A program made the translations under genes and the position numbers. From NCBI GenBank assembly GCA_005879315.1, contig VBLC01000034.1, positions 62,001 to 126,000 of the forward strand: DNA of 64,000 nt, in the 5' to 3' direction. The stretch comes from Deltaproteobacteria bacterium (lineage in GTDB: Bacteria; Myxococcota; Myxococcia; Myxococcales; 40CM-4-68-19). The first letter of the stretch is position 1, and the number at the start of each line of letters is the position of its first letter. Shown here in pieces: positions 37,128 to 56,925 of this stretch. A model generated the notes under the pieces. That model was given only the letters and a program-made list of their open reading frames with translations. It was not told the origin of the DNA and did not search any database.

Positions 37128-37294
37128 AAGCCGCGCACGTGGATGTCGATGAAGTTGATCCCCCGCGACTGCGACTTGAGCAGCCAGTCGACGCCGATGC
37201 CGAGCACGAAGATGAGGATCATCAAGAGCGCCGTCTCGGTGACGGCCTGCCCGCGCTGGCCGCTCCTCCACAGCTTTCGCAGGCGCGCCATCAT
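37097..37294 (-). CDS. small TadE/pilin-like protein, last gene of the Tad-like operon
   Basis: The 65-residue protein has a basic N-terminus, then GQAVTETALLMILIFVLGIG, a type IV prepilin-like start in which Gly is followed by four residues and Glu at +5, and one membrane helix. A short C-terminal tail follows (IHVRGFYFVLSLPFP). It could be a minor pseudopilin. The ATG overlaps the previous stop by four bases, and its 3' end overlaps the convergent gene by 31 bases. Confidence 0.65.
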   Translation of the reverse strand: MMARLRKLWRSGQRGQAVTETALLMILIFVLGIGVDWLLKSQSRGINFIDIHVRGFYFVLSLPFP

Positions 37295-38022
37295 CGCTGC
37301 GCATCTCCTTCGAGAAGATTGACGAACACCGCCGCCCCCGCCTTGTCCTCCAGCGCCTGCAGGGCCACGGAGAGCGAGGCGCCTCGCTTGCTGAAGACGA
37401 GCATGCTCGCCGCCGACTCGCTCTGTTGCCAGCCCTGCGCCGAGAGCGTTTCTCGATAGAAGGCGGCCACCTCAGCCGTCGAGAGCTTCGTCACGAACTG
37501 TCCCGTCTCGGCCCGAGCGGAAGCGTCGTCGGACCGGTAGCCGAGAAAGGCGCGGTTCTCCTCCGGCACCGGGAAGCTCGCCGCCCTCGCCCCGCGCAGA
37601 AGCCGCGGTGCTTTTCGCGGATTGGTAACGCCGATCAGGACCATCGTCTGCCCGTCGGGCTGCGGGACGGCGGTGATGAAGCGCTGCAGCCCGTCGTTGC
37701 GATCGAAGACGGAGACGTGGCCTTGCAGGGTGACCGGCGTGAGGCCGCGGGCGATGAACGCGGCGGCGTAGAAGGCGACGACCCGCTCGGGCGGGTCGGC
37801 CGTGTAGAAGAGCGAAAGCTGCATCGGCTGTCCGTTCACCACCAGCGCGTCACCGACGGCGATCGTTCCCGCGCTGGCGCGTTCGTAGGCGAGCTCGTCC
37901 ACCGCGCGCGACGGCCTCCCCTGCGCGGCGCCGGCGAAGGCGCCCCCGGCCCAGGCGCCGAGGAGCAGCGCGCCGCAAGCGGCGGTGAGCGCCAGGAGCA
38001 ATTTCGCAGCGCGCGCGATCAT
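37291..38022 (-). CDS. exported protein with a duplicated module, in the Tad-like operon
   Basis: The 243-residue protein has a signal anchor (residues 5-30). The rest appears to be two similar halves: PPERVVAFYAAAFIARGLTP and, later, STAEVAAFYRETLSAQGWQQ, each followed by a beta-hairpin segment (HVSVFDRNDGLQRFITAV; SASMLVFSKRGASLSVAL). I do not recognise the family. Its starts and stops overlap both neighbours by four bases, so it belongs to the same transcription unit as the TadE/TadG-like genes. Confidence 0.6.
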   Translation of the reverse strand: MIARAAKLLLALTAACGALLLGAWAGGAFAGAAQGRPSRAVDELAYERASAGTIAVGDALVVNGQPMQLSLFYTADPPERVVAFYAAAFIARGLTPVTLQGHVSVFDRNDGLQRFITAVPQPDGQTMVLIGVTNPRKAPRLLRGARAASFPVPEENRAFLGYRSDDASARAETGQFVTKLSTAEVAAFYRETLSAQGWQQSESAASMLVFSKRGASLSVALQALEDKAGAAVFVNLLEGDAQR

Positions 38023-39338
38023 CTGCAGCTCGGCGGATAGCGCCGCGCCGGATCGGCCTGCTGTGGCGACTGCGACCCGGCGAAGTAATGCCCGCGGCAG
38101 TTGAAGGTCCTGACGTACTCGTTGTTGCTCGAGAGCTGCGCCTTGACGCTCGCCAGCCGGGCCGAGTCGGCCTTGGAATCCGTGCCGCCCGATTCCTTCC
38201 AGTAGACGCTGTTGATCCGGTAGGGGACCGTGTAGCGCGTGCGATCGACGCCGTCGCCCATCGTCGAATAGTTGTCGAGGAGCTTCGGTCCGAGCTGCGA
38301 GGTGAAGACGTCGCCGAGCCGCTGCGAGTCGCAGGCCACGGTGCGCCCCATCCTGTCGCAGTCGTGCGGCGCCCATCGCTCGGCGGGGCGCGCGACCGGC
38401 AGGATGGTGATGGGCCCGCGGTCCTTCCCGTCCATCCGGTCCGCCGAGAAGACCAGCGGCAGCTGGCCGCCCACCAGTGTGCGCATCAGGCCGGAGGAGA
38501 CGATCTCGCCGAGGATGTTGTTGAGCCGCCTGAACCAGGAGGCGCTGGTGAGGCCGAAGAAAGCGATCTTCTTCACCTGCTCGCTCACCTGCGCCTCGAC
38601 CACCGGATAGGTCTTCATCGGGGAGGCCGCCACGTCCGTCGAGCCGCGGTCGAAGGTATAGGGCGCCGGCTTGGGCCAGGCCTTCCAGGTGTCGAAGATG
38701 AGGCGCATGGGCCGCTGCCGCGCAGGGCCGTGGATCAGCGGCGCCTCGAATTTGAAGTTGGTCATCGAGGGCGGATGGTCGAGATCGTTGCCGCCCCGAA
38801 GACCGAGTAGATCTCCGCCTTTCAAGATCGGCGAGACCTGCTCGTCGTGCCGCGCGTGCACCAGCGCGACCGCGGCGAGGGCCTCGCCGTGGACGTTGAA
38901 TCCCTCGCGCGCGGCCTCGGCATCGACGGCTTTGGAGAGGGCGCCGGCGAGGGCGCCCAGCGCGCGCTGCCAGAAGTTGCCGCCCGAGGGGAAACGAGCC
39001 GATCCGCCCATCCCCACTTTGCTCGTCGTCATGTCGACGTCGGCGCGCCAGGCGATGTCGCGCGCCAGCGGGTACATGAGGAGCCCCGTGTACTGGATGT
39101 CGATGGCGCGCGGCGAGCGCAGATCGACGAAGCGCTGCTGCACCTCGCGGTTGATCTGCGCGGGGGGCTTGAAGACCGTGCTCTCCCACAGCGAGTAGCG
39201 GAGCGCCTCGGCCGCCTTGAGCTTGAGGACCATCACGTCGGTGAAGGCAGCCGACCAGTAGAGGATGAGCACCAGGCAGGGAAAGATGATCGCTGCCTCG
39301 ACGAGTGCGCTGCCGCGCTCTGTGGTTCGCGTCTTCAT
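38019..39338 (-). CDS. TadE-like pseudopilin with a large C-terminal domain
   Basis: The 439-residue protein starts with a TadE-type pilin segment, TERGSALVEAAIIFPCLVLI, with Gly followed by four residues and Glu at +5 at the predicted prepilin-peptidase site, and one membrane helix. About 380 residues of unrecognised extracytoplasmic sequence follow, rich in aromatic and charged residues, with Cys residues near the C-terminus (CDRMGRTVACDS; FNCRGHYF; PPSCR). TadE proteins are usually below 200 residues, so this is unusually long. It overlaps its neighbours by one and four bases. Confidence 0.65.
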   Translation of the reverse strand: MKTRTTERGSALVEAAIIFPCLVLILYWSAAFTDVMVLKLKAAEALRYSLWESTVFKPPAQINREVQQRFVDLRSPRAIDIQYTGLLMYPLARDIAWRADVDMTTSKVGMGGSARFPSGGNFWQRALGALAGALSKAVDAEAAREGFNVHGEALAAVALVHARHDEQVSPILKGGDLLGLRGGNDLDHPPSMTNFKFEAPLIHGPARQRPMRLIFDTWKAWPKPAPYTFDRGSTDVAASPMKTYPVVEAQVSEQVKKIAFFGLTSASWFRRLNNILGEIVSSGLMRTLVGGQLPLVFSADRMDGKDRGPITILPVARPAERWAPHDCDRMGRTVACDSQRLGDVFTSQLGPKLLDNYSTMGDGVDRTRYTVPYRINSVYWKESGGTDSKADSARLASVKAQLSSNNEYVRTFNCRGHYFAGSQSPQQADPARRYPPSCR

Positions 39339-40960
39339 CAGTGGCGCAAGAGCTGGCCGAGGAGCGGGATCTTGTTGAGCCCGGTCTTGGCGAAGGCGTT
39401 CGATTCCATCACCGGCATCAGCCGCGCTCCCCAGAGGGGATTGAAGAGATTGGGCATCTCCCTCCACTCGCCGGGCCGATGGTAGTAGACCTGCGCCGCG
39501 GAGAAAGCATTGAGGCCCTTGTGCAGGACCTGGAGGGGCGCGCCCGGAATGCGCGGCCAGTCCTTGTCGGTGTAGCCGAAGTCGGCCGCGCCGCGGCCCG
39601 CGCTCTTGCCGTTCCAGGAGAACTTGCGGCCGTAGTATTTGCTCGCCCCCAGCTCGCGGTTGTAGTCGCGGCCCTCGTAAGCGAGCCCGACCAGCACGTC
39701 GGGCTGGGCGAAGTTGCCCGGCCGGCCGAACGGTCCCGGCTCGGCCGAGCTGCGCGCGCGGGGCGCGAAGTAGACGTACGGAGAAATGAAGAACGGCCGC
39801 GCCGAAGGATTGGGCAGCGTCTGGCGCGCCGATGTCTGCACGGCCTTGAGCACCAGGCTGAAGCCGGGGACGACGAGGTTGACGATGATCTTCTGCCACC
39901 AGCTCGGACTCCACACCTTGAAGTCGGCGTTCTTGTACGGCCTCTCGTACGCGAACATCTGGTCCATCGCGTAGAAGGTGAAGAAGTCGATCCGCCCGCG
40001 CAGCTTGAAGATCTTCCATCCGCAGTTGGCCACGCCCTGGAACTTCTGCCCGCTCCACACCTGGGGCCACGCGTCCCTGGTGCTCGAGGGCGCGAAGGTG
40101 CCCAGCTCGGTGCGCGCCACGTCGCCGATCGCGATGCAGGCGATCTTCCAGCGCCAGTGGCGCGCGAGCGGCGAAGCCGAAGGATTGGAGTAGCGATCGC
40201 CGTACGCCACCCACGGTTGCCGGGCCGAGTTGGCGATCTCCACCATCTGCAGCCTCGCCTGCTGCACGGCGTCTTCCTTGCTGTTGAGGAAGATCTTCGC
40301 CGTCTCGAACGTGTCCTGGGCCATCGTCAGGTGGCCGCGCGCCTGCGAGAAGACCGCCTGGTTGGCGAGCGGGATCAAGTCGGGCCAGATGGCCTGGTAG
40401 GGATGCGCGGCGGAGTCGCCCGAATGCGCCTGCGGCGAGACCGGCCGGCCGAGGCGGGCCCAGACTGCCCACCAGGCTCCTTCCTGCATCGCGTAGAGGA
40501 AGATGTTGGCCGCGGACAGGAGCATGGAAAGACCGGGGACTGGCCCATAGCCCCCGATGGCGATGTCCATGAAGCGGACCAGATATTTCAGGACCTGATC
40601 GACGATCCGGGCCACCACCTGGACGTAAGGCACGAGCTTGAGCACGGTGAGGAGCGGCTTCATTCCGCCGTACATGAAGTGGATCCAGCTGAGGTAGGAG
40701 GTCGCCGCCATCAACGACGCGTAGTGCACCACCATGGCGCGGTTGGTGTAGGCCGTGAAGTTCATCACCCGCCCCTCGACGGCCGCCTCGGAGTACGCGG
40801 CGGAGTCGGCGGCGGCCTGCAGCTGCACCTTGTCGTAGACGGCGCGGCCCAGATTCACGGTGCCGAGCACGCAGAGCATCAAGACCAGCCCGAAGAGCGC
40901 GGCCAGGACCAGCGTCTGGCCCTCCTCGCTCTCCTTCAGCTGGCGCAGCCGGAGGATCAT
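39338..40960 (-). CDS. TadG-like (putative Flp pilus-assembly) protein
   Basis: The 540-residue protein begins with a Tad/TadG-type helix (EEGQTLVLAALFGLVLMLCV, then LGRAVYDKVQLQAAADSAAY), the hallmark of Flp-assembly TadE/G-like proteins (PF13400). The remaining 470 residues have several hydrophobic or amphipathic stretches (about residues 80-185) and no von Willebrand domain that I can see, although many TadG proteins carry one. It is the largest gene of the operon and overlaps both neighbours by one base (TGATG). Confidence 0.7.
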   Translation of the reverse strand: MILRLRQLKESEEGQTLVLAALFGLVLMLCVLGTVNLGRAVYDKVQLQAAADSAAYSEAAVEGRVMNFTAYTNRAMVVHYASLMAATSYLSWIHFMYGGMKPLLTVLKLVPYVQVVARIVDQVLKYLVRFMDIAIGGYGPVPGLSMLLSAANIFLYAMQEGAWWAVWARLGRPVSPQAHSGDSAAHPYQAIWPDLIPLANQAVFSQARGHLTMAQDTFETAKIFLNSKEDAVQQARLQMVEIANSARQPWVAYGDRYSNPSASPLARHWRWKIACIAIGDVARTELGTFAPSSTRDAWPQVWSGQKFQGVANCGWKIFKLRGRIDFFTFYAMDQMFAYERPYKNADFKVWSPSWWQKIIVNLVVPGFSLVLKAVQTSARQTLPNPSARPFFISPYVYFAPRARSSAEPGPFGRPGNFAQPDVLVGLAYEGRDYNRELGASKYYGRKFSWNGKSAGRGAADFGYTDKDWPRIPGAPLQVLHKGLNAFSAAQVYYHRPGEWREMPNLFNPLWGARLMPVMESNAFAKTGLNKIPLLGQLLRH

Positions 40961-41739
40961 CAGCGCGCCCACCGCAAGTACGGATTGGACTGCATCCGCA
41001 TCGTGTACCAGGCCTCGACCGGCAGGAAGACGCGGCCCGCGGCGGCCGCGGCGACGAGCCCGCCAAGAGGAATTCCTTCCGGCGTTCCGTCCGCGACGGT
41101 GCGGCCGGCGGCGATGGCGCGCGAGATGGCGACGGCGTCGGGCCCCTTCTGCGTTCCCAGGCGCGGCGAGGTCCAGTCCCAGCCGCGCCAGCGCGCGAGC
41201 AGGCCGCCCTTCGACGCCATCCAGATGGTCTGGATGAGCCGGTTGGCGAAGGGCACGTGCATCTCGTAGAGGTAGCGGACTTGCAGCGAGAGCAGCGTCG
41301 CGTCGGAGGCGGCGGGGCGGACGTCGTCGAAGTCCATCTCCTGCCCGTTGAGGTGCTGGCCGAGGCGGGCGAAATCGGCCTTGAGCGGATTCCAGACATA
41401 GACGCGCACTTGCGAGAGCCCGAAAGGCCGCAGCACCAGATCCTGTGCTTTGAACTTCGCCATCGTCTTGAACAGCTCGCCGAAGGAATCGGTGCGCCCG
41501 AAGGTCGGCAGCACGGCGAGCGCCGCGGCGTCGTGCATCGGCCCGTCGAAGCCGTTGCTCGAGCCGTTGTTGCCGTTCATGACGATGCCGGTGCGCGCCG
41601 CGGCGAACGCGGCGTACTCGCACATGATGCGCGCCTGCTGGAGCTGGGTGAGCTGGATGGCCAGCAGCAGAAGAAAGATGATCGCGGGCAAGACGATGGC
41701 GGCTTCGACGACCGCCTGACCCGCTTCCCCCCGGCGCAT
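40960..41739 (-). CDS. TadE-like pseudopilin, first gene of the Tad-like operon
   Basis: The 259-residue protein begins MRRGEAGQAVVEAAIVLPAI, a TadE-type start with Gly followed by four residues and Glu at +5 at the predicted cleavage point, then one membrane helix (to about residue 32) and an extracytoplasmic domain of about 220 residues with few recognisable motifs. It opens the overlapping five-gene operon that runs to 37097. It is divergent from tRNA-Gln with an 82-base gap. Confidence 0.72.
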   Translation of the reverse strand: MRRGEAGQAVVEAAIVLPAIIFLLLLAIQLTQLQQARIMCEYAAFAAARTGIVMNGNNGSSNGFDGPMHDAAALAVLPTFGRTDSFGELFKTMAKFKAQDLVLRPFGLSQVRVYVWNPLKADFARLGQHLNGQEMDFDDVRPAASDATLLSLQVRYLYEMHVPFANRLIQTIWMASKGGLLARWRGWDWTSPRLGTQKGPDAVAISRAIAAGRTVADGTPEGIPLGGLVAAAAAGRVFLPVEAWYTMRMQSNPYLRWAR

Positions 41740-43073: not shown

Positions 43074-44114
43074 TCAGAACGTCCCCGGTAGCTCGACTTT
43101 CTGGACCACGTTCCCCTTCTTGTCCACCACTTGCAGAACCACGCTCCGGTGCCCGCGCGGCCCGGAGACGCGGCCGATCGCCGTCAGCTGCGGATCGTTC
43201 GCGACCTGGAACTGCGGCTCGGCATCGAGCGCCGAGCGGGTCTCGTCGGCGAGCAGCCGCGCCAGCTCCGGCTGCGCGCCGGTTCCGGGCTCGAGCGCCT
43301 CGACGTTGATCTTCAGCGGAACGGAATTGAGCTGGTCGCCGGCATTGATCGAAGCGCCCGCCTCGCGCTTCACCCTGCCGGTGCAGCCGGTGCGGCTGAC
43401 GCTGGTGAGGAGGAAGAAACCCTTCCGCACCTCCTGCTCGGTGACCTCGTCCTTGCCGGTGACCTCGAAGAACTGACCGGAGAAGGGCTGGGCATCGCCG
43501 AACGAGCAGGATGCCGTGCCGTTGGGCAGCGCATCGACGACGCGGCCGGCGATCTTTGGAAAGCGCATCGCCAAGGAGCGCGCCAGCGCCTTGGCGCCGT
43601 CCTTCACCTCGCCGGCATCGAAGTCGCCCAAGGCCTCGGTCGAGCCCGACGCCGACGCGGATGGCCCGACCAGCTTCTCCTCCAGCTTGCGCGCGAGTTG
43701 CCGCGAGCCCGCCTCGATCTGCCCGCTCGAGCCCACCTTCAGCGTCTCGGCGAACGCGACCTGGGCGGTGCTCGAGTCCATCGCCCGGAGCGAGAGTGCG
43801 AAGCTCTTGCCGCTGCCCTGGATGGCGCCGACCGCAATCCAGCGGGCGCCGACGAGCTGTGCCATCTTGATCTGCACCTCGTCGCTCAAGAGCCCGCTCT
43901 GCGAGAGCGCCTGCTCCTTCATCACCCGGGCGATCTGCTGCCGCTCGACGACGCGCAGCCGCCCGTCCGACACCAGCTGGGCGGTGAGCGCGTCGTTCAT
44001 CTCCGCCGCCTGCTCGGCCGTGGCGCTGCCGCGCGGATCGACCGAGGCGATGGCGAGCGTGAGGTCCTTGGCGGTCGCGGCCTGGGCGAGCAGGAGAGCG
44101 AGAAGCAGGGCCAT
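43074..44114 (-). CDS. CsgG/LpoB-like exported protein
   Basis: The 346-residue protein begins with a signal peptide (MALLLALLLAQAATA, no lipidation Cys). Residues about 18-150 resemble the CsgG/LpoB fold, with a conserved-looking segment RLRVVERQQIARVMKEQALS and then AQLVGARWIAVGAIQGSGKS. Such domains occur in curli secretion channels, LpoB and flagellar FlgO/FlgT-like proteins. A second, less clear domain with paired Cys (ASCSFG; RTGCTGR) follows, and the last 80 residues are again beta-rich. It is divergent from the CsgG-like lipoprotein at 44290. Confidence 0.65.
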   Translation of the reverse strand: MALLLALLLAQAATAKDLTLAIASVDPRGSATAEQAAEMNDALTAQLVSDGRLRVVERQQIARVMKEQALSQSGLLSDEVQIKMAQLVGARWIAVGAIQGSGKSFALSLRAMDSSTAQVAFAETLKVGSSGQIEAGSRQLARKLEEKLVGPSASASGSTEALGDFDAGEVKDGAKALARSLAMRFPKIAGRVVDALPNGTASCSFGDAQPFSGQFFEVTGKDEVTEQEVRKGFFLLTSVSRTGCTGRVKREAGASINAGDQLNSVPLKINVEALEPGTGAQPELARLLADETRSALDAEPQFQVANDPQLTAIGRVSGPRGHRSVVLQVVDKKGNVVQKVELPGTF

Positions 44115-44289
44115 CTCTACCTGCTACCGTGACCTGGCGCGCCCCGCAAGCTGCCATCGTGCGCAGAAGGTGGCAGGCCGGCGTACTAGCGTCCGAGACC
44201 CATGGCCGGCCGCCGGGCAGATAGTTGACCCTGCCGTCGCTGCGATGCTACCGATCGTGCTCCGCAATTCGCGCCTCGGGGCATCCACC

Positions 44290-45291
44290 ATGAACAATCC
44301 TTTCCACTCGGACCGCGCGCTCGTTCGCGCGATCCTGTTCGCGCTCTCTTGTGCGGCCTGCGGCACCGTCGCAGTCCGCGTGCCGGTGATGAAGCCGGCC
44401 GAGATCAACATGTCGTCCTACGCCTCGGTGGCGGTGGGCGAGATGCGCGGCAACTACGATCGGCCCATGTCCGGGGCCATCGAGGAGGCGCTGGTTGCGA
44501 GCCAGCGCTTCACGGTGGTCGATCGACAGCACATGGACAACCTGATGCGCGAATTGCAGCTCTCCTCCACCGACCTCGCCGACCCGAACCGGGCGGCCAA
44601 GCTCGGCAAGGTGGTGGCCGCGGGAGCGCTCATCTTCGGCGAGGTGAACCGCGACTATCGCGAGCACCCGGTCGAGGACCACACCAAGGACAAGGATGGC
44701 AACGTCCACACGCTCTACACGCTCAAAGGTGAGATGTGGGTGCGGGCCACCTTCAAGATCGTCGACGTTTCCACCGGCCGGTTGATCGTCGCCAAGACCT
44801 ACGAGGAGAAGCGCGACGACACCAACCGCATGATCGATCGGCGCCCCGAGCCGATCGACCGCGACAGCCTCGAGCGGGCGGCGCGCCAGGCGGTGGTCGA
44901 TCGCTTCATGAAGGCCATCGTTCCCCACCAGGAGTACATGGTGGCGAACTTCCAGAAGGACTCGGACATCCCGCAGCTCGAGGGCGGCATCGGCTGGGCC
45001 GAGCGCGGCGACTGGAAGAAGGCACAGGACGCCTTCAACGGCGCCGCGCAGGACGCGGAGAAGAATTCCAAGCTCAAGACGGCACAGATCGCCAAGGCTT
45101 ACTGGAACCTCGGCCTCGCCTACGAGTACGCCGGCGACTACGGCAAGGCGAACGACATGATCAACAAGGCCTACACGCTCTCCAACGAGCGCGACATGCT
45201 CCACGAGCTCGACAACATCAAGCGGCTCGAGGCCGACTCGAAGAAGCTCGCGGAGCAGAGCAGCGGAGCGGAGGCGACGGGTGCGCGGTAG
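44290..45291 (+). CDS. CsgG-like lipoprotein with C-terminal TPR repeats
   Basis: The protein of 333 residues has an N-terminal hydrophobic signal (ALVRAILFALSCAACG) with a likely but non-classical lipidation Cys. It then has a CsgG-family domain (SYASVAVGEMRGNYDRPMSG, RFTVVDRQHMDNLMRELQLS, GKVVAAGALIFGEV, ATFKIVDVSTGRLIV), as found in outer-membrane lipoprotein complexes. Residues about 240-320 form TPR repeats (RGDWKKAQDAFNGAAQDAEK; AKAYWNLGLAYEYAGDYGKA). ATG 44290 is preferred over ATG 44245, which would add 15 residues before the signal. It overlaps the next gene by 11 bases. Confidence 0.7.
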   Translation: MNNPFHSDRALVRAILFALSCAACGTVAVRVPVMKPAEINMSSYASVAVGEMRGNYDRPMSGAIEEALVASQRFTVVDRQHMDNLMRELQLSSTDLADPNRAAKLGKVVAAGALIFGEVNRDYREHPVEDHTKDKDGNVHTLYTLKGEMWVRATFKIVDVSTGRLIVAKTYEEKRDDTNRMIDRRPEPIDRDSLERAARQAVVDRFMKAIVPHQEYMVANFQKDSDIPQLEGGIGWAERGDWKKAQDAFNGAAQDAEKNSKLKTAQIAKAYWNLGLAYEYAGDYGKANDMINKAYTLSNERDMLHELDNIKRLEADSKKLAEQSSGAEATGAR

Positions 45292-46366
45292 GTCTCTCGG
45301 CCTCGCGGCGCTGCTCCTGGCCGCCTGCGGGGCGGAGAAGCCGAGCGCGGTCAGGACCGCCTCGGCGCCGAAGCAGCCGTCCTGGATCATGCGCGCGCCC
45401 TCGTCGGGGGAAATGCTCTACTTCACCGGCGCCAAGGAAGGCGCCTCGTCGCTCGATGAAGGCCGCCAGTCAGCTCTGGAAGCGGCGCGCAGCCAGGCGG
45501 CGCAGTACATCGGCGTGGAGATCAGCGCCGAGCACTCGGACGTGATGAGCACCGAGGAGGCGGAGAACCGCGCCAAGGACGTGGTGCAGAGCCGCGCCGC
45601 GGCGATGGTCCGCTCGGCGGAGCAGGCCGACGAATACTACGAGAAGCTCTCGCGGCCGATGGGGTCGGGCACCTACGACCGATTCGACGTCTGGATCCTC
45701 ATCAAGCTGCCGCGCGCGGAAGTCGACAAGGAGCGCGGCCGCCAGGCCGACGAAGCGAAGGCGGCGATCAAGTCGAGCCTCTTGCGATACCGCGAAGCGC
45801 TCGCGCAGGAGAAGGCCGGCAACCTGCTCGCGGCTCTGGTCCGCTACCGCGACGTGCTCGCGCAGACGAAAGGCGCCGGCAGGACGGTTGCGACCGGCGA
45901 CGCCGAGATCCCCAACGCCGGCCTCTTGCAGAAGAGAGCGCAGGACGCCGCCGCCGCCGCGCAGGCCAAGGTCCGCCGCGCCATCGTCGTCGCTCCCGAC
46001 TGGGTGGCGGGCTCGCTGACGCAAGCGCTCAGCGCCAAGGGCTTCACGGCGCGGGTGCAGAGCGGCACCGACGAGAGCGCCGCGCTGGCCTCTGCCAAGG
46101 CGCAAGGGATGCCTTGGGTGATTGTCGTCACGGCCACCGCCACGCCGGGTGGACGCGTCTTCGCCCAGGTGGCCGCTACCGCCTCGCTGGATGTCCGTGC
46201 TCTGGACGCCGCGAGCGGCGCGGTGGTCGCGTCGGCTCAGAAACAGGCCAGGGGAGTGGGGCGGACCCCGGAGGCAGCACAGCAGGCCGCGGCGAGCGAA
46301 GCAGGGCTCGGCGCGGGAAGCGATCTCGCGGCCGCGCTCGTGGCGAAGGAAAACGCGGGTCTCTGA
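45281..46366 (+). CDS. LPP20-like lipoprotein
   Basis: The 361-residue protein starts at GTG 45281, inside the previous gene, and has a clear lipoprotein signal (GLAALLLAACG, Cys16). Its N-terminal domain (PSWIMRAPSSGEMLYFTGAK, then ALEAARSQAAQYIGVEIS) follows the LPP20/FlgP pattern of a Trp, a G-x-G-like strand and an Ala-rich helix. The middle is a charged helical stretch with TPR-like character (REALAQEKAGNLLAALVRYR), and the C-terminal 120 residues form another alpha/beta domain (VVAPDWVAGSLTQALSAKGF). Function unknown. Confidence 0.6.
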   Translation: MRGRSLGLAALLLAACGAEKPSAVRTASAPKQPSWIMRAPSSGEMLYFTGAKEGASSLDEGRQSALEAARSQAAQYIGVEISAEHSDVMSTEEAENRAKDVVQSRAAAMVRSAEQADEYYEKLSRPMGSGTYDRFDVWILIKLPRAEVDKERGRQADEAKAAIKSSLLRYREALAQEKAGNLLAALVRYRDVLAQTKGAGRTVATGDAEIPNAGLLQKRAQDAAAAAQAKVRRAIVVAPDWVAGSLTQALSAKGFTARVQSGTDESAALASAKAQGMPWVIVVTATATPGGRVFAQVAATASLDVRALDAASGAVVASAQKQARGVGRTPEAAQQAAASEAGLGAGSDLAAALVAKENAGL

Positions 46367-46400
46367 TTCTCTTTCGGCTCTGGCCGACTATCGGGAGGAA

Positions 46401-46979
46401 ATGACAGTGAAGAAGATCATCGGCAGCATGGCAGTTCTAGCTCTCGTCGCTTGCGGCGGCGGAGGCGACAAGCCGCAGATGTCCACGCAGGTGCAGCACG
46501 CCAACGGGCCCGACTGGGTGAACCGCGGCTCGGGAGCCTACGGCGGCGAGAAAGGCCGCGTCTTCTACGGCGTGGGCATCGCCAGCGGCATCCGCAACGT
46601 CGCCATGCGCCGCTCGACGGCGGATTCGCGGGCTCGCTCGGAGATCTCCAAGACGCTCGACACCTACGTCTCCGTGCTCAACAAGGACTACCAGGCCTCG
46701 ACGACGGCGGGCGACATGAGCGCCTCCTCCGAGGAGCAGCACGTCGAGCAGGCCCTCAAGACCTACTCGAACATGGAGCTGTCGGGCGTCTCCATCATCG
46801 ATCATTGGATCGACAACGACGGCACCGAGTATTCGCTGGCGCAGCTGGACATGGAGAGCTTCAAGAACAACATGGACAAGATGAAGGAGCTGAACGCCAA
46901 GGTTCGCGACGCGGTGCGCGCCAACGCGGACAAGGCCTTCGACGAGCTGAACGCCGAGGAAGCCAAGCACCAGAAATAA
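46401..46979 (+). CDS. LPP20-family lipoprotein
   Basis: The 192-residue protein has a strong lipoprotein signal (GSMAVLALVACGGGG, Cys18) and one LPP20-like domain: PDWVNRGSGAYGGEKGRVFY, GVGIASGIRNVAMRRSTADS, RARSEISKTLDTYVSVLN. LPP20-type lipoproteins occur in Helicobacter and in Vibrio flagellar outer-ring components (FlgP), but no flagellar genes are in the window. ATG 46401 has GGGAGGA three bases upstream. A perfect 13-bp hairpin follows the gene. Confidence 0.75.
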   Translation: MTVKKIIGSMAVLALVACGGGGDKPQMSTQVQHANGPDWVNRGSGAYGGEKGRVFYGVGIASGIRNVAMRRSTADSRARSEISKTLDTYVSVLNKDYQASTTAGDMSASSEEQHVEQALKTYSNMELSGVSIIDHWIDNDGTEYSLAQLDMESFKNNMDKMKELNAKVRDAVRANADKAFDELNAEEAKHQK

Positions 46980-47003
46980 GGCCTCGGGCCTCTGACCTCA
47001 GGC
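46980..47003. repeat. dispersed repeat, second copy
   Basis: These 24 bases after the LPP20-like gene match, with about four differences, the reverse complement of 19821-19845 in the hsp20-bactofilin terminator. Shared parts are GGCCTCGG and GACCTCAGGC. Both copies sit directly after a stop codon, so this may be a mobile or copied terminator element. Confidence 0.5.
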
Positions 47004-47010
47004 TTCAGCG

Positions 47011-47042
47011 CGCGGGCCGGCGAATCTGCTCGCCGGCCCGCG
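47011..47042. terminator. perfect 13-bp hairpin after the LPP20-like gene
   Basis: CGCGGGCCGGCGA (47011-47023) pairs perfectly with TCGCCGGCCCGCG (47030-47042) around the loop ATCTGC. No T-run follows, as is common in GC-rich genomes. It lies between two genes on the same strand, so it probably separates transcription of 47067-48008 from the genes upstream. Confidence 0.6.
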
Positions 47043-47066
47043 GTCGCTTCGGCGACAATTGCTGTC

Positions 47067-48008
47067 ATGAAACGCGCCGCCCTGCTTCTTACCCTGTTGG
47101 CCTGTTCCTCGGCGCCGCCGAAGCCGGAGGAGAAACTGAACCGCTTCGGGCGGCCCGTGAAGCAGGGCATCGTGGTGCCGGGCTGGGCGGACAAGATCCC
47201 CGAGAGCGGCCAAGGCAAGATCTACGCGGTCGGCTTTTCCGGGCCGACCTACTGGCCGCAGGATGCGCTCAACAACGCGGCCGAGAACGCGCGCGGCAAG
47301 CTCGCCTTGGCCTTCACTTCGCACGTCGAGTACCTGGGGATGGATACCGAGACGGCCGCGGCCCAGCAGGGCGGAGCGATCATCAACAAGGAAGCGACCG
47401 ACGTCGTCATGCAGAACTCGCGCATCGAGGCGAGCTGGGTCGACGAGAACGGCGACCGGAGCGAGGCGGGCTCGGTGTGGGCGCTCGCGTCCATCCTGAC
47501 CGATCCCAACGCGCGCTACGCGCAAAAGGCGGCCTCGGTGACGGGCGCCGTGTGGACCAACGGAACGCGGACCCGCGCCCCTTCGTGGCTCGACAAGCTC
47601 CCTGGTGCAGAGAGCAGGATCTACGCCGCGGGTTACAGCGGCCCGACCTACCGCGCCGACAATGCCCTGCAGTACGCGGGCGAGAACGCCATCGACAATC
47701 TGGTCGCCTCGCTGCGCGCGCACGTGCAGGCCTACACGCTCCTGGTGGAGACCGCTTCCGGTCTCTCGGTGGACGACTTCGCCCGCAGCGAGAACGCCGA
47801 CGATTCCTTCCGCGAGATCGTCAAGAAGAGCGCCAGGATCGAAGCCACCTGGGTCGATGCCGAGGGAATCCGGCCGGGCGATCCTCCCGGAGCCGTCTGG
47901 GCGCTCGCCTCGATCGAAGTGCAGAGCTCGAAGGGCGGCGTGAAGGCGGTCGAAAGCGAGGACCTCGGCCCCGCCCTCGACAAGCAGGGCAACGCGCCGG
48001 AGAAGTAA
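47067..48008 (+). CDS. lipoprotein with two tandem LPP20-like domains
   Basis: The 313-residue protein has a lipoprotein signal (MKRAALLLTLLAC, Cys13). It contains an internal duplication: residues about 38-144 and 172-283 align, sharing P-x-W, YAxGxSGPTY, SRIEASWVD/ARIEATWVD and VWALASI. Each unit follows the LPP20-like pattern also seen in the two preceding genes. A function is not known; the position with CsgG-like genes suggests an outer-membrane complex. It converges on a SurA-like gene, with ten bases between the stop codons. Confidence 0.7.
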   Translation: MKRAALLLTLLACSSAPPKPEEKLNRFGRPVKQGIVVPGWADKIPESGQGKIYAVGFSGPTYWPQDALNNAAENARGKLALAFTSHVEYLGMDTETAAAQQGGAIINKEATDVVMQNSRIEASWVDENGDRSEAGSVWALASILTDPNARYAQKAASVTGAVWTNGTRTRAPSWLDKLPGAESRIYAAGYSGPTYRADNALQYAGENAIDNLVASLRAHVQAYTLLVETASGLSVDDFARSENADDSFREIVKKSARIEATWVDAEGIRPGDPPGAVWALASIEVQSSKGGVKAVESEDLGPALDKQGNAPEK

Positions 48009-55482: not shown

Positions 55483-56925
55483 TCAGACGGGGAAGGCCGG
55501 CGTCGAGCCGCTGGTCGCGGGCGGCACACCCAGCCCCGTCCCGGGAGGCTCGATGGGCAAGACCAGCGTGAAGGTCGAGCCCTTGCCGGTCTCGCTCTTG
55601 ACGAACACCTCGCCGCCGTGCGCCTCGACGTAGCTCTTGACGATGGAGAGCCCCAACCCCGCGCCGCCGTACTCGCGCGAGGCCGACGAGTCCGCCTGGA
55701 AGAAAGTCTCGAACACCTTCAGTTGCAATTCGGGCGGAATCCCGATGCCGTTGTCGGTGACCGAGATCTGGAAATACCCCGCCGAGCCGAAGGGCCCGGC
55801 GCTCTTGGGCGTGAGGTCGGCCGGCCCCGCCTGCACGGCGATGTGCCCGCCCGCCGGCGTGAACTTCACCGAGTTGGAGAGAAGGTTGACGACGCACTGG
55901 CGGATCTTGTCGCTGTCGACTGTGACCTTCTGCACCGAGGGCGAGACGTTGGAGGTGAGCTGCAGGTTCTTCTTGAAGCTCTGCGGCAGGACCGACTCCA
56001 TCGCGCTTTGCACGATCTCTTCCAGGCTGGAGGGCTTGCGCAAGAGCTGCACGCCGCGGGCCTCGATGCGGGAGAGATCGAGGATCGACGAGATCAAGCG
56101 CAGGAGCGACTCGCCCTTCTCCAGGATCGTCTTCAGATAATCCTGCTGCTCTTCGTTGAGCTCTCCCGCCAGCCCGGCGAGCAGCATCTCGGAATAGCCG
56201 ATCACGCTCGTCAGCGGCGTGCGCAGCTCGTGTGAGACGGTGGCGAGGAAGTTCGACTTGAGGCGCGACAACTCCTGCAGCCGCTCCAGCGCTTCGGAGA
56301 GCTTCTTGTTCTTCTCCTGCACCTCTCGATAGCTTTCAGTCACCGATTCGATGTGCAGCTGCGAAGAGATCATCGCCCGGTGCGAGGTGTAGACCAGGAC
56401 ATCGACGATGCGGGTGAAGTGCTCGAGGATGCGCCGCACCGTGCTCTCCGGCGCGCTGCGGATGCGCTCGATCAGCTCCTTGGCCTTCTTCAGATCGAAT
56501 TCGCCGGAAAGATCCCTCAACTCCCGCCCCAGGTCCCCGACGTCCTCGGGCATGAAGGGCCCGAAGATGACCCGGCCGATCATGTCCCCTTCGTAGAGGA
56601 TGGGCATCATCAGATAGCGCAAGCCGGAGAAGCAGTTGCGCATGGCGATGATGTCTTCCGGGTCTTTCGGCTGCGACTCGAGCGGTCGCACCTTGATGTG
56701 CGTAACCGTCTCGGTGCAGAGCCTGCGGCCGTTCGGACCGGTGAACATGTAGGCGCAGAAGTCGCCGGAGGCGACCTTCATGTCGACGAGCTTTGTCCCC
56801 TGCTGGTCGAAGACCTTGAGGCCGATCTTGTAGAGATCGACGAACGTCTTGCAGACGTTGGTGAAGCTGGGCAGATCGAGCAGCTCGCCCAACACGAGCT
56901 TCTTTTGCAGGACGCTCTCTGCCAC
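55483..56925 (-). CDS. PocR-domain sensor histidine kinase
   Basis: The 480-residue soluble kinase has a PocR-type sensory domain (about residues 10-180, with Cys57, Cys70 and Cys98, which in relatives can bind ligands or metal), a short coiled coil (195-225), a HisKA domain with phospho-acceptor His232 (LATVSHELRTPL), and an HATPase_c domain with N box RQCVVNLLSNSVKFT, G1 box DNGIGIP and G2 box GGAGLGLSIVK. No membrane helix is present. GTG 56925 overlaps the stop of the MglA-like gene by one base, so kinase and GTPase are made together. No response regulator lies nearby. Confidence 0.9.
   Translation of the reverse strand: MAESVLQKKLVLGELLDLPSFTNVCKTFVDLYKIGLKVFDQQGTKLVDMKVASGDFCAYMFTGPNGRRLCTETVTHIKVRPLESQPKDPEDIIAMRNCFSGLRYLMMPILYEGDMIGRVIFGPFMPEDVGDLGRELRDLSGEFDLKKAKELIERIRSAPESTVRRILEHFTRIVDVLVYTSHRAMISSQLHIESVTESYREVQEKNKKLSEALERLQELSRLKSNFLATVSHELRTPLTSVIGYSEMLLAGLAGELNEEQQDYLKTILEKGESLLRLISSILDLSRIEARGVQLLRKPSSLEEIVQSAMESVLPQSFKKNLQLTSNVSPSVQKVTVDSDKIRQCVVNLLSNSVKFTPAGGHIAVQAGPADLTPKSAGPFGSAGYFQISVTDNGIGIPPELQLKVFETFFQADSSASREYGGAGLGLSIVKSYVEAHGGEVFVKSETGKGSTFTLVLPIEPPGTGLGVPPATSGSTPAFPV

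Follow-up and report, generated by a model that had tools for sequence, protein, structure and literature searches.

A five-gene cluster with flagellar H-ring-type domains in a myxococcotal genome that lacks a flagellum

Sodium-driven flagella are braced by rings. The H-ring of Vibrio is made up of the lipoproteins FlgO and FlgP and the periplasmic protein FlgT (PMC7990780), and it is believed to fasten the flagellum to the outer membrane (PMC7990780; PMC6504787). FlgP, Lpp20, and FlgT have one fold in common; in Campylobacter, FlgP forms concentric rings beneath the outer membrane, the inner ring of C. jejuni containing 51 subunits, and FlgQ resembles a repeat of two FlgP units (PMC12222027). 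Because these parts have been studied solely in flagella, it is an open question where the H-ring and the basal disk came from. The same domain kit, conserved in flagellum-free bacteria, is a candidate for their non-flagellar source, or for parallel use.

Here, we describe five genes, referred to as A to E, in a 64,000-nucleotide stretch of a myxococcotal genome from soil (the window; all coordinates are positions in it). This kind of system is known already, and what is new within the literature searched is its flagellum-free setting and its layout. A search that misses most subscription journals yielded no publication treating LPP20, CsgG, and lipoprotein together, nor any that describes a gene set of this sort.

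Genes and domains of the cluster

Gene A (43074–44114, − strand) encodes a protein of 346 residues with a signal peptide that lacks a Cys lipobox, and the product is predicted to be periplasmic. It is divergent from B (44290–45291; 333 residues), C (45281–46366; 361 residues, GTG start), D (46401–46979; 192 residues), and E (47067–48008; 313 residues), which are all on the + strand. The 175-bp intergenic region between A and B (44115–44289) is, judging by its sequence, likely a two-way promoter region. The ATG start of D at 46401 is preceded by a GGAGGA motif. Since 11 bp are shared by B and C and the gaps between C and D (34 bp) and between D and E (87 bp) are short, B-C-D-E (44290–48008, + strand) likely forms one operon. 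The proteins encoded by B to E are predicted lipoproteins, with the signals CAAC, LAAC, LVAC, and LLAC, respectively, and these signals recur in orthologues. All five open reading frames reported in a preliminary description of this locus are present and adjacent, and the genes are real, intact, and under purifying selection, with dN/dS values of 0.18–0.39 across all five. The value is lowest in D, which is also the best conserved gene (approximately 80% within the window's family).

That description had also named two CsgG-type proteins and three LPP20-type proteins with at least four LPP20-like domains, and both statements hold. The Pfam profile for CsgG (PF03783) matches A (9.3e-10) and B (1.0e-9) above the curated cut-off, in both cases through the N-terminal part of the profile only (approximately positions 31–98 of 210). 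In B, the CsgG-type core covers residues 51–119 (44440–44646), and a C-terminal TPR region covers residues 238–298 (45001–45183; TPR_12, 9.5e-7). In A, Pfam, PDB sequence, and Foldseek matches define a domain of the LpoB/TolB-N/CsgG/FlgT-M type (approximately residues 19–149; 43668–44060), and the model contains a C-terminal β-rich domain (approximately residues 167–346; 43077–43616) that has no Pfam match. Both A and B have Pfam matches to LpoB, and their scores for the NCBIfam LpoB equivalog (30.3 and 25.1 bits, respectively) are below the threshold of 110.55 bits.

The LPP20 profile (PF02169) matches D, searched as a single protein, with 4.3e-5 and 24.3 bits (residues 53–150; 46557–46850), and E in two stretches with 4.5e-4 and 21.0 bits, just below the cut-off of 25.9 bits, which is exceeded by orthologues of both. 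The two LPP20 domains of E cover residues 38–141 (47178–47489) and approximately residues 172–284 (47580–47918; Pfam match in two stretches). For C, which has no Pfam matches at all, a single LPP20/FlgT-N-like domain (approximately residues 33–144; 45377–45712) is assigned from the model, from its fold, and from profile–profile comparison, in which the N-terminal half of C aligns with D (E = 8e-6, probability 84). The same type of comparison links A with B (probability 96) and E with D (probability 79). FlgT_N, FlgT_M, and FlgT_C Pfam domains were not found in A or C at E-values up to 10, and sequence searches of the PDB with C, D, and E returned chance-level matches only. In a six-frame search of the source genome, D is the sole match to the LPP20 profile, and A and B are two of the three CsgG matches; hence, this clustering of domains is not a matter of chance. 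In their domains, A–E correspond to the flagellar H-ring (FlgO/FlgP/FlgT) and to FlgP/FlgQ.

Fold models and the resemblance to FlgT, PelC, and CsgG

AlphaFold2 models of A (pLDDT 80) and C (pLDDT 82) were compared with the PDB using Foldseek. The model of A consists of a compact LpoB-like domain and the β-rich domain, and its top matches are FlgT chains (8z5n, LPHT ring, 2.0e-9; 3w1e, 4.0e-9), followed by TolB and LpoB. The alignments with FlgT span 314–323 columns and must therefore take in the C-terminal β domain of A. The model of C matches a Caulobacter lipoprotein and, in second place, FlgT (3w1e, 1.8e-5, 357 columns; 8z5n, 7.1e-5), the latter over the full length of C. The N-terminal half of C is LPP20-like by fold, whereas a second domain (approximately residues 230–360; 45968–46360), assigned from model and fold, is PelC/CsgG/FlgT-M-like; the model also matches PelC (5t11 and 5t0z) and CsgG (4uv2). 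Foldseek thus bears out the comparison with FlgO, FlgP, and FlgT that had been drawn earlier from sequence alone. With domain letters read from the segment layout, A looks like the M and C domains of FlgT, and protein C looks like the N and M domains. Whole-chain TM-scores to FlgT are low (0.26–0.28) because the domain arrangements differ, being only partly common to these proteins. Residues 80–106 of C, at the position of the ring-forming hairpin of FlgP, have low confidence in the model. This, the low TM-scores, and the lack of FlgT Pfam domains count against a FlgT/FlgP-like ring or scaffold.

The matches of C to PelC and CsgG bear on another explanation, that of an outer-membrane export system. 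In it, B and C would surround an unlinked β-barrel as a PelC/CsgG-like collar, with the TPR of B as a platform for a substrate or an enzyme. There is a precedent for this in the Pel exporter, where PelC is a 12-subunit collar that holds the TPRs of PelB (PMC12141448), and the likeness extends to both the C-terminal domain of C and the TPR of B. However, no PelB-type barrel or Pel genes were seen near the cluster, and genes for a barrel, a polysaccharide, or an amyloid were not seen to accompany it, so that we regard a collar of this type as improbable. The partial Pfam matches of A and B to CsgG recall the CsgG channel, and curli secretion had been named as one setting in which such domains meet, but neither protein has recognizable pore-forming hairpins. 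The model of A is LpoB-like and lacks the CsgG-type transmembrane hairpins; in an alignment of B with full-length CsgG homologues of relatives, the first hairpin is highly charged and the Gly-rich second hairpin is missing. Full-length, canonical CsgG was not found in the source genome. These observations also count against the collar, they make a CsgG-type secretion pore unlikely, and they speak against a curli-type role for the cluster.

Conservation, neighborhood, and the absence of a flagellum

The earlier statement that flagellar genes are missing extends beyond the window, as neither FlgI nor Flg_bb_rod is matched anywhere in the source assembly (97.6% complete). Among the 12 genomes of the window's family, 10 lack FlgI, and in the other two (G009 and G011) it is on contigs other than that of the A–E cluster. 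The cluster is complete in 11 of the 12 genomes, nine of which are FlgI-free and span three genera. The FlgO/FlgP/FlgT-like parts, together with FlgI in two family members, would fit the leftovers of a flagellar H-ring that has since been lost, retained through inertia. We consider this highly improbable, given that the reading frames are intact and under selection, that nine FlgI-free genomes from three genera have the full cluster, that it is not beside FlgI in the flagellated relatives, and that other families have related D-E-A sets with different gene orders.

SurA-like genes lie downstream of the cluster, as had been noted before, but they are part of an older block. In an outgroup genome (G053, L139), the order Mfd-SurA3-SurA2-SurA1-YchF is found without A–E, which means that A–E either entered an older Mfd-SurA-YchF block or disappeared from it. 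In the one exceptional genome of the family (G008), the SurA genes remain though A, C, and E have been lost; SurA was therefore rejected as a member of the system. Elsewhere in the window, the region 37291–41739 (− strand) contains a TadE-type pseudopilin gene (40960–41739; PF07811, 8e-9) followed by two more large open reading frames conserved in relatives (L038 and L041), and is probably a Tad/Flp-associated cluster. The gene at 55483–56925 (− strand) encodes a histidine kinase that carries a PocR sensory domain.

Neighborhoods were compared across Myxococcota. D is present in 50 of 195 genomes and E in 30, all of which also have D; the two genes adjoin in 24 of these 30. A also adjoins D-E in several genomes, with differing gene orders. 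These orders include x-A-D-E (L113–L115), D-E-protease-A-LpoB-450aa (L109 and L112), D-protease-LpoB-450aa (L104–L107), and D-LpoB-450aa-LPP20 (L117, L121, and L132), where 450aa denotes an unnamed lipoprotein of approximately 450 residues. A genome of another family (G015) has B-C-D-E in order and A elsewhere; members of families f6 and f8 have a diverged B followed by a homologous gene that matches LPP20 in G018. A contig scan with D as query gave matches in myxococcotal (“deltaproteobacterial”) metagenome-assembled genomes only. Paralogues were also seen: a diverged D paralogue in the source genome and several congeners (L119, 8371–8865; G000:C58:38373–38849, − strand) adjoins an AlgH-like gene and a ferredoxin and has no Pfam match alone, and several relatives have second, unlinked B paralogues (L045, L046, L047, and L048), one adjoining a phage-type integrase and one a DUF6986 gene.

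These neighborhoods can be set against the possibility that A–E are unrelated lipoproteins with common envelope folds and a shared neighborhood but no common complex. LPP20, CsgG, and LpoB folds are indeed widespread and common in many non-ring lipoproteins, which counts against a scaffold, and G008 retains B and D. In that genome, however, A, C, and E were lost jointly, inside a contig, and D-E and A-D-E are adjacent repeatedly in different orders. An absence of any common complex thus appears very unlikely.

The chief rival of a scaffold, which we judge to be rather unlikely, is control of peptidoglycan synthesis in the manner of LpoB. On this view, A, and perhaps B, would extend from the outer membrane as far as a class A penicillin-binding protein, assisted by the LPP20 lipoproteins. 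LpoB, an activator of peptidoglycan synthase, works through binding to the UB2H domain of PBP1B (PMC6220978). The N-terminal domain of A matches LpoB in Pfam (PF13036, 8.5e-5), in a PDB sequence search (4q6z, 3.2e-4), and by fold (4q6l, 2.9e-7), and in relatives D is found in operons with canonical LpoB and its conserved partner of approximately 450 residues. Because this pair is absent from the source genome and from nearly all of the family, A or B might stand in for it. The sole family genome with both genes carries them on a 6.5-kb contig (G006:C541, L135) that may be foreign or contamination. On the other hand, A has an additional C-terminal domain and no lipid anchor (B does have one), and the LpoB-like fold also occurs in FlgT and TolB. 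No PBP1B-type partner with UB2H was found in the source genome, where the only UB2H match has the coordinates of Mfd, and UB2H matches in the family genomes were rejected as LpoB partners, since most of them lie in long Mfd-sized frames. A plain replacement of LpoB is weakened further by G015, which has A–E homologues together with canonical LpoB and its partner.

Canonical LpoB followed by the 450-residue lipoprotein, often flanked by LPP20, is found across Myxococcota, including large-genome members of family f4 (L104–L112, L117, L121, and L127–L136). NCBIfam gave no name for the partner, which may resemble COG3014. No publication was found for COG3014 or COG3417 in a search that misses most subscription journals. 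The cluster also points to a little-studied, phylum-wide envelope module of LPP20 lipoproteins, a protease, LpoB, and the unnamed 450-residue lipoprotein.

A candidate non-flagellar scaffold and its relation to known systems

The explanation that we favor, and to which we give an even chance, is that A–E form a periplasmic ring or scaffold that is anchored in the outer membrane and operates independently of flagella; mutual binding of the proteins, their arrangement in rings, and their job are what we infer. It is favored because the kit matches, D corresponding to FlgP, E to FlgQ, A and C to FlgT, and B to FlgO. The products would make up a single non-flagellar assembly in the periplasm, associated with the outer membrane. 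Within it, the lipid-anchored LPP20 proteins D and E would form a lattice or ring layer beneath the outer membrane, comparable to FlgP of Campylobacter, while FlgT-like connectors would be provided by A, which combines LpoB-like and FlgT-C-like domains, and by C, with its LPP20-like and PelC/CsgG-like domains. B, with its CsgG-type domain and TPR, could be a FlgO-like lipoprotein providing a protein-binding platform. The likeliest job would be bracing or anchoring a machine that spans the envelope, or linking the outer membrane to the cell wall. Of the dedicated outer-membrane complex suggested in the preliminary description, the idea of an envelope complex is backed by the family neighborhoods and by the adjacency of D-E(-A), while its role and assembly stay conjectural. 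A broader view, which we find doubtful, is that flagellum-free rings or disks of FlgP/FlgT/FlgO-type subunits are widespread in Myxococcota and that the flagellar H-ring and basal disk were perhaps recruited from them.

Compared with the Campylobacter basal disk, D, with a single LPP20 fold, is like FlgP, and the two-repeat E is like FlgQ. The A–E set is non-flagellar, though, and any ring-forming hairpin of the FlgP type is putative. The Campylobacter disk also has the HtrA-derived PflC, and in relatives a trypsin-like periplasmic protease is encoded next to D-E. The protease homologues have an intact His-Asp-Ser catalytic triad and no PDZ match, and we therefore rejected this neighbor as a PflC-like pseudo-protease. 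The gene is next to D at L104–L107, L109, L111, and L112, and its product has a conserved C-terminal tail (MKELEDMMDEM...GMGLW).

As in the Vibrio H-ring, a FlgT-fold periplasmic protein is encoded with CsgG-type and LPP20-type outer-membrane lipoproteins, and the pattern of lipidation, with FlgO and FlgP lipidated and FlgT not, matches that of lipidated B, D, and E and non-lipidated A. The differences are that the source genome has no flagellum, that there is no FlgT Pfam match by sequence, that the FlgT domains appear split between A (M+C-like) and C (N+M-like and lipidated), and that B bears a TPR and E has LPP20 in tandem. By test, the A–E set falls outside the H-ring families, and it may function like the flagellar H-ring.
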